Positions 3,634-37,372 of a DNA stretch of 49,315 bases are shown piece by piece. The notes below the pieces were generated by a model that saw nothing but the letters and a program-made list of their open reading frames with translations, did not search any database and had not been told where the DNA came from. Numbering within the stretch: position 1 is the stretch's first letter; each line of letters begins with the position of its first letter. The position numbers and the translations under genes were made by a program. Origin of the DNA: a virus; IMG/VR virus record IMGVR_UViG_3300047157_000051, positions 1-49,315 of that record; one strand, 5' to 3'.

Positions 3634-3884
3634 CAATACAAGATATAATAAGTAAAGCATTCTTTGATGGGTATGGTTTGATGTTTAAGTATCACAAAAC
3701 TGATACAGGTGAACACCAACAACGAATGTTAGTGACTGTATCCGATTTAAAATACAACGCTGATGATGAGATATTAGTTGGTGGTTGTATTAGTACTGAT
3801 GGGGAATACAGACAATTCTTCATGGAAAACATGATGTCTGTTAAACCTTTTAAGTATATAGATATTGCAGAACTGTCACAATAA
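3630..3884 (+). CDS. 84-aa protein with small beta-fold appearance
   Basis: Last gene of the tightly coupled chain that starts at 3009. It has GYGLMFKYHKTDTGE and a VTVSDLKYNADDEILVGGCI segment, suggestive of a small SH3/WYL-like beta barrel that many viral and CRISPR-linked proteins share. This resemblance is only by eye. The frame is intact. Confidence 0.6.
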   Translation: MTIQDIISKAFFDGYGLMFKYHKTDTGEHQQRMLVTVSDLKYNADDEILVGGCISTDGEYRQFFMENMMSVKPFKYIDIAELSQ

Positions 3885-4269
3885 TGTCACACAAATGACA
3901 CATTGATATGATAGGATATGTTTTGTAGTTAGGAGTGAGCCTTTGTAAAATCCCACTGGTCTTATATGTCTGAAGTGCGAGTTAAGGATAAAAGTAAATG
4001 AGAACTAAACCACCATGCACTAACTACAAACTTGTCCGAGTAAGGGAGTAGTTGACAAGACTGCACCAGCTATCCAGCGTGAGCTACTATAAACTAGGAT
4101 AGAGGAGTGGTTTGCTAGTAGTCCATGGTTTTACCTTGTCCGAGTAAAGAAGGACAAGAAGTAGTGTTGACAGGCACTATAAAAACCGATAGTTATGTTG
4201 CTGTTGGAGGAGTTGGTAGTTATCTTCGGAACTAAAAAACTACCACCTAATTTTAAAAAGGAGGATGAT
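3885..4269 (+). ncRNA. Hairpin-rich stretch, candidate structured RNA
   Basis: No long frame exists here, yet complementary segments are dense. 3922-3932 pairs with 4020-4030 over 11 bp. CTTGTC 4031-4036 pairs with 4054-4059. CTATCC 4070-4075 pairs with 4097-4102. CTACTA 4084-4089 pairs with 4116-4121, which crosses the former as a pseudoknot would. CTTGTCC 4135-4141 pairs with GGACAAG 4152-4158. 4214-4221 pairs with 4238-4245. AACTAC 4022-4027 also matches 4048-4053, giving an alternative fold. The 13-mer CTTGTCCGAGTAA occurs twice, 104 bases apart. Against an RNA: tiny frames exist at 3966-4001, 3998-4051 and 4125-4235, and indels in this region could hide small genes. Confidence 0.4.
4125..4235 (+). 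CDS. Possible 36-aa peptide inside the hairpin-rich stretch
   Basis: A frame starting MVLPCPSKEGQEVVLTGTIK and ending SYLRN reads like a small beta protein and spans the second CTTGTCC hairpin. An upstream frame in the same style (LQTCPSKGVVDK at about 4024) shares the CPSK word because the DNA repeat is shared. There is no clear ribosome site close to the ATG. Low confidence. Confidence 0.25.
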   Translation: MVLPCPSKEGQEVVLTGTIKTDSYVAVGGVGSYLRN

Positions 4270-4517
4270 ATGAGTAATAAATAAAAGTAAATTGGCAAGA
4301 CCATAGGAATTAGATGATCTATTACAGAAAGAATGGCTGGATCCTAAGTTTGAAGTGCGAGTGACTAATGAGGTTGGATAACCTTTTGGTAAATTTATGG
4401 GTTAGTCAAGAAGATCTGGACAATGTAGCTTATGATGTTGATGATGTTGCATAGGCTTTGGAGAACTACGTCAAAGAACAAGAACGAGATGGCTTAACGA
4501 TACTTAAAGGAGAGTAA
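4270..4517 (+). CDS. Small acidic protein, about 80 aa, frameshifted
   Basis: A strong GGAGG site (4260-4264) precedes the ATG at 4270. Joining frames gives MSNK-SKLARP, then ELDDLLQKEWLDPKFEVRV, NLLVNLWVSQEDLDNVAYD and finally LENYVKEQERDGLTILKGE before TAA at 4515-4517. At least three disruptions (near 4282, 4372 and 4452) must be corrected, one being an in-frame TAG. The pieces are colinear and contiguous, so one damaged gene is the simplest reading. Function is unknown; acidic and helical. Confidence 0.45.
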
Positions 4518-13576: not shown

Positions 13577-13843
13577 ATTTAATGAAGGAAATATATACAA
13601 GAACTAAAAGAATATATTGATGGTACATATGGTGAGCACTATGCTTCTGATAAGTATCAAGCAACAGATATTATCATTGATTCTGGACATGGAGAAGGTT
13701 TTTGTATGGGTAACATTATGAAGTATGCTAAACGTTATGGAAATAAAGAAGGAAAGAACAGAAAAGACTTGCTAAAAATATTACATTATGGTATAATAAT
13801 GCTTAACGTACACATGATACAGAGAAGAAATAATGGTAGATGA
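13567..13843 (+). CDS. DUF3310 protein (gp1.7-like nucleotide kinase family), one indel
   Basis: Overlaps the previous stop. After an indel near 13603 it reads ELKEYIDGTYGEHYASDKYQ, then the family pattern DIIIDSGHGEGFCMGNIMKY-AKR, then DLLKILHYGIIML. This His/Cys/Gly-Asn arrangement is that of DUF3310, represented by T7 gp1.7, a thymidylate kinase-like protein. It overlaps nrdA by 11 bases, consistent with a nucleotide-supply role. Confidence 0.65.
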
Positions 13844-15728
13844 TAAAGTAGGTATCAAGGAATATCTTGGTATAAAAATTAATTACAGTAATGAAAAACT
13901 ATTAGATAAGTTTAGCCTTGACACACTCAAGGATAGATACTTATGGGAGAATGAAACACATGCACAAGAAGCATTCGCAAGAGCATCCGTCTTCGGAGCA
14001 ACCTACAAAGGTCACACAGATTTTGAATTGGCTCAAAGACTTTATCACTACAGTTCCTCTTGTTGGTTCATGTTTAGCACTCCTATACTTAGTAACGGGG
14101 GAACAAGTCGTGGGCTTCCTATTAGCTGTTTCCTCAATTATGTACCTGACAGCAGGGATGGTTTATCTGCTCACTATGACGAGAATATATGGTTGGCAAG
14201 TTCAGGTGGAGGTATTGGTGGATATTGGGGAGATATTAGGAGTAACGGTATTTCTACTACTCACGGTAGTAAGTCTACTGGTTCAATTCCTTTCATGCAT
14301 GTTGTAGATTCTCAGATGTTAGCCTTTAATCAAGGCACTACAAGACGTGGTTCTTATGCTGCTTACATGGACATATCTCATCCGGAGATTGAAGAGTTCA
14401 TTAACATGCGTAAAGAATCTGGTGGAGATATCAATCAGTAAGAATCTTAATCTTCATAATGGTATCAACATTACCAATGAGTTCTTGAAAGCTGTACAAG
14501 AAGATGCAGACTTTAGATTGATTGACCCTAAGACTAACGAACCTGTTAAGATTGTAAATGCTAGAGACTTATGGTGGCAGATCATTAATGCTAGAGCAGA
14601 GACAGGTGAGCCATACATGGTTAATATAGATACATGTAACGAAGCATTACCTAAAGAACAAAAAGATTTAGGATTAGAAATCAAACAGAGCAATCTATGT
14701 TCTGAGATTACTTTACCTACTAACGAAGAACGAACAGCAGTATGTTGTTTATCTTCTGTAAACTTAGAATACTTTGATGAGTGGAGTGAGAACCCTCTAT
14801 TCATTGATGATTTAATTACCATGCTTGACAATGTATTACAACATTACATTGATAACGCTGTAGATACAAATAACTTAGGAGAATACAATGCAAATTTTAA
14901 AAGATTTCAAAAACATATTAAGCCGGGCAAAGAAGGGTTTCTAAATCTGCCTACTCTGCTTATAGAGAAAGGTCGTTGGGTCTTGGTGCGATGGGATTCC
15001 ATTCGTATCTCCAATCACGCAACATTCCTTTTGAAGGTATCTTCGCTACGGGCTTTAATTACAAAGCATTTAAACACATTAAGAGACATTCGCTTAGAGC
15101 AACTGAACGACTTGCTGATGAACGTGGTGAGTCACCTGATGTCAGTGGTAGTGGTAGGCGTAATGCTCATCTACTCGCTGTTGCTCCTAATGCTTCTTCT
15201 AGTATCATATGTGGTGGTACGTCTCCTTCGATTGAGCCATACAGGGCTAACGTTTATACGCACAAAACTCTCTCAGGTTCTTTCCAAGTTAAAAACAAAT
15301 ACCTAGAAGATATACTTAAAGATAAAGGATTAAAGAAAGATGAGTTGACTGCATTGTGGAAAGACATTGCAGGTAACGAAGGTTCAGTACAACATCTTGA
15401 TATTCTTACAGATGATGAGAAAAGAAATATTTAAGACTGCTAATGAGATAGATCAAATATGGATTATAGAACATGCTGCTAAACGTCAAGAGTTTATATG
15501 TCAAGCACAGTCAGTTAATCTTTTCTTTACTATTCCTAAAGCTACAGAGCCACAGGAAGTACATGATGAATACATGCAGTATGTCAATGATGTACATTGG
15601 TATGGTATGAATAAACTAAAGTCTTTGTATTACTTTAGAACTAATGCTGCTCGTAATGCAGAGAACGTAAACACTAAAGTTCAACGTATAAATTAGACGA
15701 TGCTGAATGTATAGCTTGTGAGGGATAG
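13833..15728 (+). CDS. nrdA: Ribonucleotide reductase class I alpha subunit, frameshifted
   Basis: Reduces ribonucleoside diphosphates to make dNTPs. Conserved pieces: SRGLPISCFLN (redox Cys near residue 99), ASSGGGIGGYWGDIRS, QSNLCSEITLPT with the catalytic Cys (about 287), VCCLSSVNLE with the second redox Cys, and APNASSSIICGGTSPSIEPY. A C-terminal CIACEG (thioredoxin-reactive pair) reaches TAG at 15728. There is no N-terminal ATP-cone, so ATP/dATP activity control is probably absent, as in many marine phages. Indels near 14430, 14910, 15425 and 15690 split it into several frames. About 632 aa. Confidence 0.85.
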
Positions 15729-19692: not shown

Positions 19693-20796
19693 TTATTGAG
19701 TTCTATAAAATTCTTTCTTACACTGTCTCTTTGTTTTAGTTTTTCTTGTATAAATAACTTTAACTGCACCAACTACATCTTTATTTATTTTATCTCTGTT
19801 AGGATTTTTATCGTGTGTACATTGTTGGATGTAAAGTTTTTCTTGGTCTTTAACATCAGGTCTTTTAGCTTTGTTTTCAGCCCAAGCCATTGATGCTTCT
19901 TTACCTATCTTACCTTGGTAAGGGCAAGGAGTACCAGCCATTTCCATAGCCTTAAATACTCTCGGGTCTTGACAAAGTATAGATACTGAAGCCACTTTCA
20001 TACCAGTATCATATAGATACTTGGAAAGTTTTAAGCGTTCACAGTTCTCGTCAGTTACAGTAGCTCCTGTAGAGAACCCAAATACTTGCCCTTGAAAAGC
20101 ACCAGAACGACCTACAGTACAGAGGTCTTGTGAGTAAGACATAATACTAGGTGCTATAGCAGAAGCAGGAGGTGCTTTGCTTTTTACATTCTGGTTGATT
20201 GTTTGAGTAGAGTTAGACTCGTTAATATTTCTGTTAGTGTTGTCGGACTTAGTATTGTTGTTATTAGTATTTGTGTTGTCCGTAGTCACATTAGAGTCTG
20301 AAGTCGATGTATTAACGTTAGTATTGTTATTAGTATTTGTATTATTACTAGTAGAATTACTGTTGTTATTTACGTTCTGATTTACTGTAGAGTTTACAGT
20401 AGAGTTAGATGTCGAAGTAGATGTGTTGACGTTGTTATTATTATTGGTATTACTGCTTGTAGATGTGGAATTATTAACGTTGTTATTGGTGTTAGTTGAT
20501 GTATTAACATTAGTATTATTATTAGTTGACGTATTAGTATTCGTATTTACATTAGTATTATTATTAGTATTACTATTGGTATTCGTATTAGTATTGGTAT
20601 TATTATTAGTGTTGTTATTGGTGTTGGTATTTGTAGTCACCGTATTATTAATAGTTGTTAAACCATTGTTTTCACAATACTGAGTACCTGCAACACAGTC
20701 TCCTGTTTGGTCAGCACTTAGCCCAAATGAAACTGCTAACATTCCCAACACAATCAAAGGTCCAAAAAAATTTTGATTTAATGTACGCCTTGTCAC
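19693..20796 (-). CDS. Exported Asn/Thr-repeat protein with Cys-rich C-terminal domain, 367 aa
   Basis: Signal peptide (MTRRTLNQNFFGPLIVLGML through LSA before Asp). Residues 50-205 are an almost pure Asn/Thr/Ser/Val repeat (NTNTNNNTNVNTSTN style), encoded by degenerate codons. The C-terminal domain (about 215-367) has SYSQDLCTVGRSGAFQ, FGFSTGATVTDENCERLKL, ILCQDPRVFKAMEMAGTPCP and a basic tail; this domain recurs in marine podoviruses, function unknown. Four or more Cys suit a disulfide-bonded periplasmic fold. It overlaps the next gene upstream at 20796 by one base. Confidence 0.6.
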   Translation of the reverse strand: MTRRTLNQNFFGPLIVLGMLAVSFGLSADQTGDCVAGTQYCENNGLTTINNTVTTNTNTNNNTNNNTNTNTNTNSNTNNNTNVNTNTNTSTNNNTNVNTSTNTNNNVNNSTSTSSNTNNNNNVNTSTSTSNSTVNSTVNQNVNNNSNSTSNNTNTNNNTNVNTSTSDSNVTTDNTNTNNNNTKSDNTNRNINESNSTQTINQNVKSKAPPASAIAPSIMSYSQDLCTVGRSGAFQGQVFGFSTGATVTDENCERLKLSKYLYDTGMKVASVSILCQDPRVFKAMEMAGTPCPYQGKIGKEASMAWAENKAKRPDVKDQEKLYIQQCTHDKNPNRDKINKDVVGAVKVIYTRKTKTKRQCKKEFYRTQ

Positions 20797-31535: not shown

Positions 31536-34500
31536 TTAGTATCCACAATCAGTGTTGTTAGCTATTTCTTCTTTATATCTTAAATCAGATACTCTAGTCC
31601 AAGATGCATTAGTATCAAATTGATTATAAATTCTATCTGAACCTGCTCCTGAACCTAAAGTTGCATAAAAGTTACCGACTCCGACAACTTCATAACCAAT
31701 CGCAATAGAAGCGTTTGTGTCTACAGCACTACCACGAGCATTTTGTCCAACAAAAACATTTTGACCACCTGTTGTTTGGTTGTTACCTGCTCCATAACCT
31801 ATACAAACAGTATTACTTGCTGTGGTCAGACCTAATCCTGCTTGCATTCCCAGAACAGAATTATTAGCACCTGTGCTGTTTCCTTTTAAAGCTGCTTGAC
31901 CAACTGCGACATTATTAGAACCTGTGGAAGTATCTTCCATAACATCGTTACCAATTGCGGTGTTGTTTGCAGAGGTGGTAGCAGTATCTAAAGAATTATG
32001 ACCGACTGCAACGTTATTAGAGCCTGTTGTGTTTGCTTCTAAAGCACTTTTACCAAGAGCTGTATTTTCTGCACCTGTGGTGTTTGCGGTCACCTGCACC
32101 TTTAGCCAACTGCATAAAAGTATTGTCTGTACCTGTGGTATGTAAGTTCTACCTGCCCCTTGCAAAACCGACTGCTACATTGAATGTATGAGAGCCGCCT
32201 GTAACATTCATAGTTGCTAATGCTTTAAATCTCAACAGCAACATGCTCGTGTCACCTGTTCCAGTATGTTGTAAGCAGTTAAAGATTCATACCCAATAGC
32301 TAGTATTAAATTCACCTGTGGTGTTTGCATGTTAGTGCACTAAGCTCCTACTGCGGTGTTGTCTTGTACCTGTGGTATTAGCGGATTTAGTGCATTAAAT
32401 TCCGAAAGCTGCCACGTTAGTCGTCAGCCTGTAGTGTTTGCATCTAGTGTAGCATTAGCACCTACTAGCTGTATTTCCTGGCACCTGTTGTCGTGTTTCC
32501 TGCTAAAGCATTTAGTCCTATACCAACTGCTGTGTTGGAACTTGCGGTGGTGTTTGCAGTCTAATGCCCCTGCTCCTACTGCAGTACGTTATTAGCACCT
32601 GTGGTGTTTAGTTCTAAAGCACTGATAGCCTATATGCAGTGTTGTGGTCGGCTGTAGTGTTTGTGCTTAGTGCACCTCTACCAACAGCTACGTTAAAATC
32701 TCCTGTCGTATTAGCATCAAATGCGTAAGTACCTACCGCAACATTGGCATTTGCACCTGTCGTATTTAGAACCCATAGCATCATAACCGACAGCAGTATT
32801 ATCGTTTGCTGTTGTGTTTGCATCTAAGGCAAAAGCTCCACCTTGTGCAGTGTTTCTAGTTCCTGTGGTGTTTGCTGTTAAAGCAATTGTTACCAACTGC
32901 TGTGTTGCTGTTGATGCTGTCGTATTAGCATCTAAAGCTCCCTTGACCTACTGCCACATTGTAAGCACCTGTAGTGTTTACCATCAAGGCATTAGTACCT
33001 ATAGCAGTATTAGCTTCAGCAGTAGTATTAGCACTTAAAGCGTTTGTTCCTAAACCTACATTATTAACACCTGTAGTATTTGCATCTAAAGAACTAACTC
33101 CCATAGCAACGTTATTAACACCTGTAGTGTTTGCATTTAAAGCATAATAACCAACACCTGTATTTGAGTTTGCTGTTGTTGCATTTTGTAAAACATTTGT
33201 ACCTAGTGCAGTATTTTGACTTCCTGTTGTATTTGTCTGTAGTGTACCTTTACCAAATGCAGCATTGTAATTACCTGTTGTATTAGCTGCGGCAGAACTC
33301 ATCCCCATTGATGTGTTTTCAGTTCCTGTAGTGTTTGCACCCAGAGAACTTTTACCAACTGCGGTGTTAAAATTACCTGTAGTGTTTGCATCTAAAACAT
33401 CTTGACCAATACCTGTATTTCCTACAGCTGTAGTATTTGAACCTAAAACATTGTAACCTACTGCTACGTTTCCATCAGCAGTTGTGTTTGCACTTAAACA
33501 ATTGTATCCAACTGCTACATTATAAGAACCTGAAGTATTAGCGTCTAAAGTGTTAGAACCAATTGCTACGTTTCTTCCTCCATTAACATTTGATGTTAAA
33601 GCAGAATGACCTATTGCAGTATTATTACTTGCGGTAGTATTTGAACCTAAAGCACCAACACCAAGAGCAGCATTAAAACTACCTGTTGTATTAGCACCTA
33701 AACTACTTAAACCTATAGCAGTGTTTTGAGTACCTGTTGAGTTTGCATCTAAAGAATTAAGACCAATTGCAATATTATAACTACCTGTAGTGTTTGCTGC
33801 TAAAGCACTTTTACCTATAGCTATTCCACCTGTTCCTGTGGTGTTTAATCTTAAAGCTAAATAACCAAGTGCTGTATTATCTGAAGCTGTGGTGTTGTCA
33901 GCTAATGCATTATAACCTACTGCAGTATTATTAGTACCTGTTGTGTTATCAAACATAGCACCATATCCAACTGCTACGTTATTAGAAGCTGTAGTGTTAT
34001 TTCCTAAAGCTGATTTACCTACAGCAGTATTACCAACACCTGTGGTGTTATCATACATAGCATCTTTACCTACTACTGTATTCTCTCCACCTGTGGTGTT
34101 TGCAAATAAAGCGTTAGAGCCAACTGCTGTGTTACTTGAAGCTGTGGTGTTGGTGCGTAAAGCATTTTTACCAAGAGCTGCGTTTTCTGTACCTGTGGTG
34201 TTGCTGTACATTGAATAAGTACCAACTGAGGTATTGTTAGAAGCTGTTGTGTTAGCAGCTAAAGCTCCTGTACCAAAAGCAGCGTTACTAGAACCTGTTG
34301 TATTTGCAGATAATGCTGCCGAAGTATTACTTGTATGCTCACCACCAAACGCACTGTTAGCACTACCTGTTGTATTTGCATCTAAAGCTAAATATCCAAA
34401 AGCTGAGTTTGCTGTACCTGTGGTGTTTACATAAAGAGCTTTATAGCCAACTGCTGTGTTATTGTCTGCAGTAGTGTTAGCACTTAAAGCAAGATTACCA

Positions 34501-37372
34501 ACTGCTGTATTTCCATCACCTGTCGTACTAGCATCTAAAGTAGCATAACCTAATGCAGTATTATGAGTACCAGTTGTGTTTACTCCTAAAGCATTTCTAC
34601 CAAAAGCACTATTATTATTTGCAGTTGTATTAGCATCTAATGCACCTGAACCAACTGCTGTATTATCTATACCTGTGGTGTTTGATGTCATAGTATCATA
34701 ACCAACTGCGGTGTTATGAGTACCAGTTGTATTTTCTTCTAAAGCATGGTAGCCAATTGCTATGTTTTGACCACCTGTAGTATTTTCTTCCAGAGCTTCG
34801 TTACCAACTGCTATATTGTAATCTCCAGTTGTATTTTCTTCTAATGCCAAATAACCTAAAGCAACATTACCAGTACCTGATGTATTGTCTCTTAAAGCAC
34901 CATAGCCGACAGCTGTATTTGCAGATTGTGTGGTACTAGAACCAAGGGCATCTCTACCTACTGCAACATTTACAGTACCTGTAGTGTTTGCATCTAAAGC
35001 TCCATCTCCTATAGCAACATTACTACCACCTGTAGTAGTATTTAGCATAGCATTTTTTCCTACTGCTACGTTTTTATCAGCTGTAGTGTTTTGTACTAGG
35101 GCATCATTACCCACTGCTACGTTGTCAGAACCTGTGGTATTTAATTGTAAAGAACCTGCACCGACTGCTACGTTAGTAGCACCTGTAGTATTTGAAAGCA
35201 AAGACAGCCTACCTAGTCCAGTGTTAAAACTAGCTGTGGTGTTAGCACTTAAAGCAAAGTTTCCTATGGCTGTATTGCCAGAACCTGTTGTATTAGCATC
35301 TAGTGTTGATTTACCCACTGCTACATTGTTATCACCACTAGTCAAAGCTGCAAAAACATCTACACCTAAACCTGTATTATAGTTAGGTGCATCTAAAGTG
35401 CCAGTAGTTGAGTCTCCAATCATTATGGAGTCTGTGCCAAAAGCTCTACTAGGTATACCATTAACTGTAGTTGCAGACACATCGCCTGATAGGTAGAGGT
35501 CTTTGAATCTTCCACCTGAATAACCTAAGTCAATAGCGTTGTCTCTTCCTGCTCCAGTAGATGTTGCTGGTAGTACAGCATCTAAACTGTCATTAAATCT
35601 TAAGAAAGTATCACCTAGTACCTAAAAAGATATCACCAGTGTTAGTACCAATACTTCCAACTGTTGTTCCGTCTTTTCTGAATACGGCAATGTCGCCATC
35701 CGTGAACTTAAGTTTTTCTGTTTAAAGTAAAGCACTAACACCATCTGCTAACAGCAGATACCTGCTTAGACCTAATTAAACACCTTCGTCAGTACTTATT
35801 GTTTGCAACATTATGCAGTCTTACCCACCAACAAGTTTCCAGAGCTATCAAACCTTGCAGACTCTGATGTTCCATGTGCAAAAGCAAGGGGTTCACCACT
35901 AAATGTTCTAAGTGTCCATGTTGGATTAGCTGCTGCTAAATTAGAGCATTTAATAGCAAAAGCTCCTGTATTTGATTTAAATGCAGCTACATCTACATCT
36001 GTACCTGAAGAACCACCAAATACATGAAGTTTAGAAGTTGGTGAAGTCGTTCCGATACCTACGTTTCCAGAGCTGTCTATTCGGAGGCGTTCAGTTCCAC
36101 TTGCTGTACCTATAGTTGTGCCTGTAAAAAATCCAAACCCACCACTTCTACCAACTAATGCTGATGTTGCTGAACCGCTTCCAAAAAACAACCTTGCACT
36201 ATATTCTGAAGAATTAGTTTGTTGTTCTAGAGATAAACCATCTACACCATCAATACCACCAACCACTAACTTAGTAGATGGCGAAGTTGTTCCGATACCT
36301 ACGTTTCCAGTACCATCTAGCACTAATTGATTTGCATTACGATCACCATCTACGGCTATTTTTAGTAGTGCATCATCATTTGTGTAAGTTGGATTAGCAA
36401 GTATCGTGGCTGTAGTATTACCTGCTTGTGTATAACTCATCTCTAAACCTAGAGATGCAGCATTACCACCAATTTTTATTGTTCCAGCAGTAGTTGATCC
36501 GCTGTCGTAAACAAATACTGACCCTGCTGGTTTTAATACTATATTTTCACTTGTAGATGATGTGATTTCTAAATTATCAAAGCCGTCATTGCCTATAGTG
36601 TGTGAATCTCCAACACTTATAGAAGTGGCACTTACAACACCTGTTACGTCTATGCCTGTTGAGGTTGTGGTTAGTTTAGCTGAGTTGTCATATCTTAACT
36701 GTGCAGCTCCTGTAGATGAAGCACCATAGAAATATGTTTTACTACCTGCTGCATTTGTTAGATATAAGCTATCTCCTTGAAGCATCAAAGAGCCATGTTA
36801 GCAGTACCATCAACATAAAGATTTCTCCATTGTTGTGTAGAGCTTCCTAAGTCATAAGTATCATCATCGTCAGGTATAATATGAGAATCAATGTCAGCAC
36901 CAAAGACTACGTTATCAGTAGCTGCATCACCCATAGTGATTGTACCACCGTTAAAAGTAGTTGTACCTGTAACTGTAAGATTACCACCAACACTTACGTT
37001 TCCGGTTGTGGTAACTGTATCTGTATACGTATCTTTAAATCTTAAACTTGTTGTACCTAAATCAATATCACTGTCTGTAACAGGTATAATAGCACCATCG
37101 GATATGTATAACTGTTGTACAGGAGCTGAAGATACTTCTACATAAAACTCAATAAAGTTATTTGTTGTATCAATTAATACTTTATTATTTGGAGATGTTT
37201 CTCCTGCATCACCAATCAATCCTATAACTGGACCTTCAGCAGTAGTACCATCATGTGCATGACCTGTAGTATTGCTAAACGCATTTAAAAGTTGATTGTA
37301 TTCATTATTGAATAGTGCAGCAGTTATTGTGTCTCCATCTGAAAACGAACTCTGTCTTATGTAACCTGCCAT
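31536..37372 (-). CDS. Giant tail fibre with beta-roll repeats and stub of S74 chaperone
   Basis: Reads MAGYIRQSSFSDGDTITAAL at 37372, the attachment domain common to marine phage fibres. The frame slips at 36785 (TGATG), again in 35640-35811, and repeatedly in 32165-32925. The middle has fibre-type segments (NVGIGTTSPSTKLVVGG, AVFRKDGTTVGSIGTNTGD, DLGYSGGRFKDLYLSGDV). From about 35340 to 31690 roughly seventy 17-residue repeats occur. The last residues VSDLRYKEEI look like the start of a Peptidase_S74 chaperone but stop at once. About 1940 aa if one protein; two genes (start at 36785) are possible. Confidence 0.65.
31690..35340 (-). repeat. About 70 tandem 51-bp units in the fibre gene
   Basis: Each unit encodes 17 residues of the form GNTAIGxxALxANTTGS, resembling the YadA-like/Hep_Hag left-handed beta-roll. 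Copies are degenerate at DNA level and in frame. The count is estimated from length (about 3650 bases over 51), and the damaged part at 32165-32925 makes it approximate. Repetition probably also caused assembly or sequencing trouble here. Confidence 0.75.

Follow-up and report, generated by a model that had tools for sequence, protein, structure and literature searches.

A shuffled string of structured RNA domains in HMO-2011-type and related uncultured marine phages

Comparative genomics of phages and metagenomes has yielded a number of structured RNA motifs, among them manA, wcaG, IMES and the skipping-rope RNAs. GOLLD and ROOL are large, phage-encoded structured RNAs containing several pseudoknots, and their function is unknown (PMC12286853). 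The put RNA of phage HK022 is ~70 nt long, is made up of two stem-loops and is found near PL and PR; putL sits immediately after its early promoter and needs no dedicated protein (PMC9378689). Further traits of put RNA are binding to the beta-prime zinc-binding domain and suppression of termination.

The locus described here lies in a 49,315-base virus record, taken over its full length and hereafter called the window. The portal protein shares 66% identity with its counterpart in Pelagibacter phage HTVC115P and 53% with the one in Puniceispirillum phage HMO-2011, and the window is therefore assigned to the HMO-2011-type podoviruses; SAR11 is a plausible host. Phages of this type have been described as dominant and widely distributed in the ocean (PMC9038755), and no report of noncoding RNA in them was found in full-text searches of an open-access library. 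Elsewhere in the window, two - strand proteins are highly repetitive, one tail-spike-like with dozens of NTTGxxNxAxGxxAL repeats (32925-35480) and the other with long N/T runs (19693-20796).

The RNA region sits among small + strand ORFs, the preceding one (84 aa) stopping at 3884, and the list of + strand open reading frames contains no intact gene across 3885-4269, as an initial annotation from the bare sequence had stated. That annotation suggested a structured RNA, and all the stems it named are present in this interval. Stems alone prove little, because single-sequence folding is only modestly unusual: the + strand has z = -2.23 and is matched by 1 of 100 shuffles, and the - strand (z = -0.59) folds no better than shuffles. 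It is covariation in relatives, where stems are kept by compensatory changes, that strongly supports the suggestion. The window carries, at 3922-4245 of the + strand, a string of RNA domains, each folding on its own, in the order A-B-C-B-D (Table 1).

Table 1. Positions of the RNA domains, their pairings and the flanking signals in the window.
Feature	Positions	Strand	Description
Promoter-like site	3895-3922	+	ATGACA-N16-TATGTT; 9/12 match, weak
Module A	3922-4030	+	~109-nt pseudoknotted three-way junction
Module A, P1	3922-3932/4020-4030	+	TTTGTAGTTAG/CTAACTACAAA; closes the three-way junction
Module A, pseudoknot	3935-3937/4011-4013	+	GTG/CAC
Module A, P2	3940-3943/3984-3987	+	
Module A, P3	3994-3996/4016-4018	+	
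Module A, unpaired conserved cores	3944-3950; 3998-4010	+	TGTAAAA; ATGAGAACTAAAC
Module B, copy 1	4031-4059	+	CTTGTC/GACAAG hairpin, GAGTA in loop
Module C-like	4060-4129	+	H-type pseudoknot, then hairpin-like stretch
Module C-like, S1	4064-4066/4079-4081	+	CAC/GTG; sole S1 pairing in the window
Module C-like, S2	4070-4075/4097-4102	+	CTATCC/GGATAG; clear in the window
Module B, copy 2	4135-4158	+	CTTGTCC/GGACAAG hairpin, loop GAGTAAAGAA
Module D	4163-4245	+	83-nt 3' domain
Module D, stem	4163-4166/4175-4178	+	AGTG/CACT
Module D, proposed long-range pairs	4168-4173/4201-4206; 4191-4194/4230-4233	+	TGACAG/CTGTTG; AGTT/AACT
Module D, terminal hairpin	4215-4221/4238-4244	+	GGTAGTT/AACTACC
RBS and start codon	4260-4272	+	GGAGGA; next gene, usual 3' neighbour of the RNA string

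P1 of module A is the longest stem and the most clearly kept; its two strands occur as GUGGCUAG/CUAGCCAC, GUAGUUAG/CUAACUAC, GUAGCUAG/CUAGCUAC, UUGGGUAG/CUACCCAA and UUUAGGUAG/CUACCUAAA, and P3 occurs as CACG/CGUG, CAUG/CAUG, CGCA/UGCG, AACG/CGUU and GUA/UGC. P2 combines a near-invariant UGUAAAA internal loop with a variable apical part, and the core of the P3 loop is AUGAGNACUANAC. The module is pseudoknotted: the short strand that follows P1, mostly GUG, reaches into the third-helix loop to pair with CAC. This pairing takes the forms GUG/CAC and AAG/CUU in A, and GAUG/CAUC, GACG/CGUC and AACG/CGUU in a sister family, A'. A pseudoknot had been anticipated by the initial annotation, but with mostly different partners, namely S2 of the C-like module crossed by CTACTA 4084-4089/TAGTAG 4116-4121. 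Both stems are perfect in the window; S2 is kept in form among relatives and the other is not.

In a 32-sequence alignment of A, 97.0% of cells are paired and 12 of 22 pairs have changed on both sides, whereas slid controls pair 23-46% of cells and show double changes in 1-3 pairs; shuffle and tree controls were applied as well. The corresponding values for A' are 96.8% and 9 of 23 pairs, and RNAalifold recovers P1, P2 and P3 of module A unaided. By a tree-aware simulation of our own design (1000 simulations), A has 14 compensatory events where 0.67 are expected on average (maximum 4; 0/1000) and A' has 5 (0.65 expected); A and A' jointly have 15 (0.49 expected), 4 of which fall in the pseudoknot. 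A stricter but underpowered G-test with a tree null was significant for 2 of 22 pairs in A and for none outside the structure, for no pair in A' and for 1 of 22 in the joint set. One-sided changes in A, P2a excepted, give G-U on the + strand, with A-C in one cell only, which identifies + as the RNA strand. A coding reading of A, with a core ATG opening a short frame, was rejected as the ATG is absent from A' members L152, L183 and L290.

Some A loops contain an insert, AGAAGUCUGA-hairpin-GGGUGACGAAG, which is K-turn-like and is offered as a lead only. An insertable sub-module, GAAGUCUGA-stem-loop-GGGUGACGAAG, has the look of a box C/D-like K-turn (CUGA...GUGAYGA) and is seen inside different modules: in the variable loops of A and A', for example in L119 (469-587, -) and L191 (7750-7892, -), and in the A-D linker of L135 (-).

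Both B hairpins are opened, as originally noticed, by the 13-mer CTTGTCCGAGTAA, which starts at 4031 and 4135 and is closed by GACAAG at 4054-4059 and GGACAAG at 4152-4158; the L019 counterpart of the first has the stem TTGACA/TGTCAA and retains GAGTA. Among relatives, 91.7% of module C cells are paired; each of its two stems shows compensatory changes, and 5 of 12 pairs have changed on both sides. Its crossing stem there is ACUCAC/GUGAGU, of which the window retains ~3 pairs, and the window copy is divergent and is missed by the C profile at E 1e-3. Module D (22-sequence alignment) has 97.0% of cells paired and 4 pairs with double changes, varies less than A, and shows 2 compensatory events against 0.24 expected (18/1000 in the tree-aware simulation). 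Its last hairpin is changed to GATAAG/CTTATC in L049 and L259; its inner pairs are uncertain, RNAalifold favoring a nested alternative. Modules F, G, H, I, J, L and M, whose structures were judged by eye only, are also present in relatives.

Used as a query, the nearby 244-aa protein (2040-2774) retrieved 62 contigs, and profile searches located the region at the matching place in 21 others of that set, with a conserved pattern of two blocks, a variable middle, then RBS and ATG. Degenerate patterns built from the conserved blocks retrieved 35 contigs, all 35 with true module A, together with 32 contigs carrying A' and more copies of D; a loose D pattern, whose listed matches were mostly chance, was replaced by a stricter one. 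A is present in 62 viral contigs and A' in at least 30 more; D is present in 44. The 98 contigs matching the A' profile are not additional, because this profile recognises A too.

Modules A, A', C, D, F, G, H, I and J occur shuffled in more than 30 orders (e.g., G-H-A'-I-D, G-I-A, C-I-A, A-C-D, A-F-D, A'-D-F, D-M-F and A-A'), in strings of ~90-450 nt with up to six different domains. A and D occur without each other, and module ends are sharp at the closing stems, with differing flanks. HMO-2011-type phages and uncultured marine phages related to them keep at least nine domain types as distinct units whose order is reshuffled. RNA domain shuffling at this scale is the surprising part, and these orders and types provide a natural example of it that is open to comparison; each module is short and lends itself to probing or to tests in common laboratory bacteria, with no need for the uncultured phage. 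Seven near-complete records have one A/A'/D locus each, a second A' copy in G002 possibly reflecting terminal redundancy, and all context-checked copies are in sense with the following gene. There is, then, one locus per genome examined, in sense with the neighboring early genes.

Searches for known counterparts were negative. Rfam 15 (4227 families) at gathering score matched neither the window nor 13 loci, and the region and two strings had no match at E<=10; a comparison proposed by the initial annotation, with families including GOLLD, ROOL and IMES, gave nothing. Known self-cleaving ribozymes and group I/II introns were likewise without an Rfam match in the window, the 13 loci and the two strings, and the window has no tRNA or tmRNA. 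Isolate phage DNA shows no similarity to the region, A or D, and the first 16 kb of HTVC115P, HTVC103P, HTVC033P, HMO-2011 and CRP-235 contain no convincing A (best E 0.079). Other hairpin-rich early intergenic stretches, distinct from A and D, are present in HTVC115P (L327, 7515-7930) and HTVC033P (L329, 4217-4400) and may hold unrelated structured RNAs. Patterns scanned against 84,980 species genomes of bacteria and archaea gave 4 matches, none of which passes the profile. Judged from sequence, the modules appear to be new RNA families within a known kind, structured phage RNA.

How do they compare with the systems already described? Like the manA, wcaG, IMES and skipping-rope type, they were found through covariation in uncultured marine sequences, but 0 of the 4227 Rfam families match. 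With GOLLD and ROOL they share phage encoding, structure and several pseudoknots. They are, however, shorter, and consist of shuffled beads-on-a-string domains instead of a single conserved fold; the covariance models of GOLLD, ROOL and OLE do not match, and GOLLD and ROOL typically lie near tRNA genes, whereas the window has none. The nearest working analogue, by place and orientation and not by fold, is HK022 put RNA. Both would be structured RNAs made by the host polymerase that open early transcripts, in sense and tied to no one gene, and no dedicated phage protein is evident. Both lie downstream of an early promoter in early-operon sense, the early class being assigned here from position and the sigma-70 consensus. 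Whereas put has two stem-loops, A folds as a pseudoknotted three-way junction and D adopts another fold, and many unrelated, pseudoknotted domain types make up 90-450 nt in total at one locus per genome.

In the window, a transcription start ~5-8 nt past the promoter-like site would lie at the first helix of A. Better matches with the same layout occur in L006 (TTGACA-16-TACAAT) and L113 (TTGACA-18-TATATT) (11/12), where the promoter ends 3-5 nt ahead of P1. Strings led by G have a near-consensus sigma-70 promoter, mostly TTGACA-N17-TATAAT, directly upstream in ~30 loci. A consensus promoter adjoining A was dismissed as a general rule, in-string A copies mostly scoring like shuffled sequence; in several phages module A begins 7-17 nt past a stop codon without an adjacent promoter. 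Each phage has ~5-12 near-consensus promoters yet a single RNA locus, which argues that the string is not a general leader. Separately, G001 (L309-L311 joined, 34347-35144) and G003 (14420-15283) have a gene-free region of 600-1000 bases that opens with two consensus sigma-70 promoters arranged back to back, with similar gaps in G002, G005, G006 and G007; in G001 and G003 it also contains repeats of the DnaA-box-like type TTATCCACA/TGTGGATAA and resembles an origin of replication that carries divergent early promoters.

We tentatively favor, at somewhat short of even confidence, a cis-acting structured leader of the early transcript, possibly antiterminating like put RNA. Host RNA polymerase would transcribe the string early, in many cases from a consensus sigma-70 promoter immediately before it, and each folded domain would engage the transcription or RNA-decay machinery, mainly in cis. 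The likeliest single mechanism would be that of put, in which the nascent RNA modifies RNA polymerase and so allows read-through of pauses and terminators; transcript protection would be the second. Action in cis on something general, such as polymerase or RNA decay, is suggested because the downstream gene is immaterial and unlike modules substitute for one another. Downstream genes range from a small protein to a primase-sized 549-aa ORF, phrog_1617 relatives and a 310-aa ORF, and A and D interchange ahead of the same gene (a small protein with a TWIPKKSD-like core; phrog_1617 relatives). Modules would be interchangeable because each would do the same job for any gene that follows. A small protein family with a YWxTWIPKKSDIKII-like core is often first after the RNA string (L131, L249, L013, L122 and L191). 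With rather less confidence, the strings may together amount to a combinatorial RNA-domain system, an early leader built from at least nine recombining domains, each binding host transcription or RNA machinery. If so, the pseudoknotted or junction-containing leader domains of an abundant marine phage lineage recombine like protein domains. In relatives of HMO-2011-type phages, an RNA locus that is conserved, modular and strongly promoted would offer a fresh way to study the early programme of these phages in streamlined hosts.

The main rival, which we rate as possible, is a gene for a noncoding RNA that acts in trans: the string would be freed by a terminator or by processing and would, in the GOLLD/ROOL manner, partner a protein, the ribosome or further copies of the RNA. 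This reading is nearly as likely as the cis-acting leader because of the single locus per genome and of L152, where a promoter (835-864), A', D and an intrinsic terminator (1094-1111) follow one another; bounded in this way, L152 fits a free-standing RNA gene. The unfixed downstream gene and the dedicated strong promoters point the same way, as does a multi-domain pseudoknotted architecture like that of ornate phage RNAs (PMC12286853). However, L152 is an exception: 65 of 68 distinct 3' flanks have no terminator-like site within 130 nt, and most strings lead straight to an RBS-ATG, 16-34 nt downstream in 39 of 68 distinct strings. The strings are also far shorter than GOLLD and ROOL, neither of which they match in Rfam.

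The proximity of the RBS, and conserved unpaired nucleotides that resemble an aptamer within varying helices, would suit a riboswitch or gene-specific leader governing translation of the next gene. This is unlikely, as the same module precedes unrelated genes across phages with no consistent gene or pathway, A and D swap before the same gene, and there is no conserved alternative pairing. A switch was proposed at AACTAC 4022-4027, which can indeed pair with GTAGTT at either 3925-3930 or 4216-4221. Its two partners sit in separate modules, each of which occurs alone, and the switch is rejected because the A and D stems vary independently: L135 combines a P1 of TTTAGGTAG with the D stem GGTAGTT.

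Slightly more doubtful still are self-cleaving ribozyme or processing domains that cut the early polycistronic RNA. Pistol and hammerhead ribozymes occur in phages too, and the compact pseudoknot of A, with its invariant unpaired core and intergenic position, would suit such a reading, but no Rfam ribozyme matches, and a string with as many as six different domains would have more cleavage sites than it needs. Short mobile DNA cassettes, hitch-hiking between genes with hairpins functional as DNA, would account for the sharp module ends, differing flanks and many orders; they are very improbable, since DNA hairpins explain neither the covarying pseudoknots nor G-U tolerance on one strand, and the locus is single and in sense in each genome.

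Indel-damaged tiny genes with chance stems, the competing explanation of the initial annotation, are scarcely credible for 3922-4245, where relatives without a frame keep the stems via compensatory change, despite the many broken genes of this contig, in which frameshifts interrupt the helicase among others and ribonucleotide reductase is split at 13833-15306. Directly downstream of the string, such damage is real: the 82-aa gene (MSNKYKWLDHSYFDCLHFEWAGTEFEVRVTNEVDD...) at 4270-4516 is frame-broken in the window and intact in L002 and L092.
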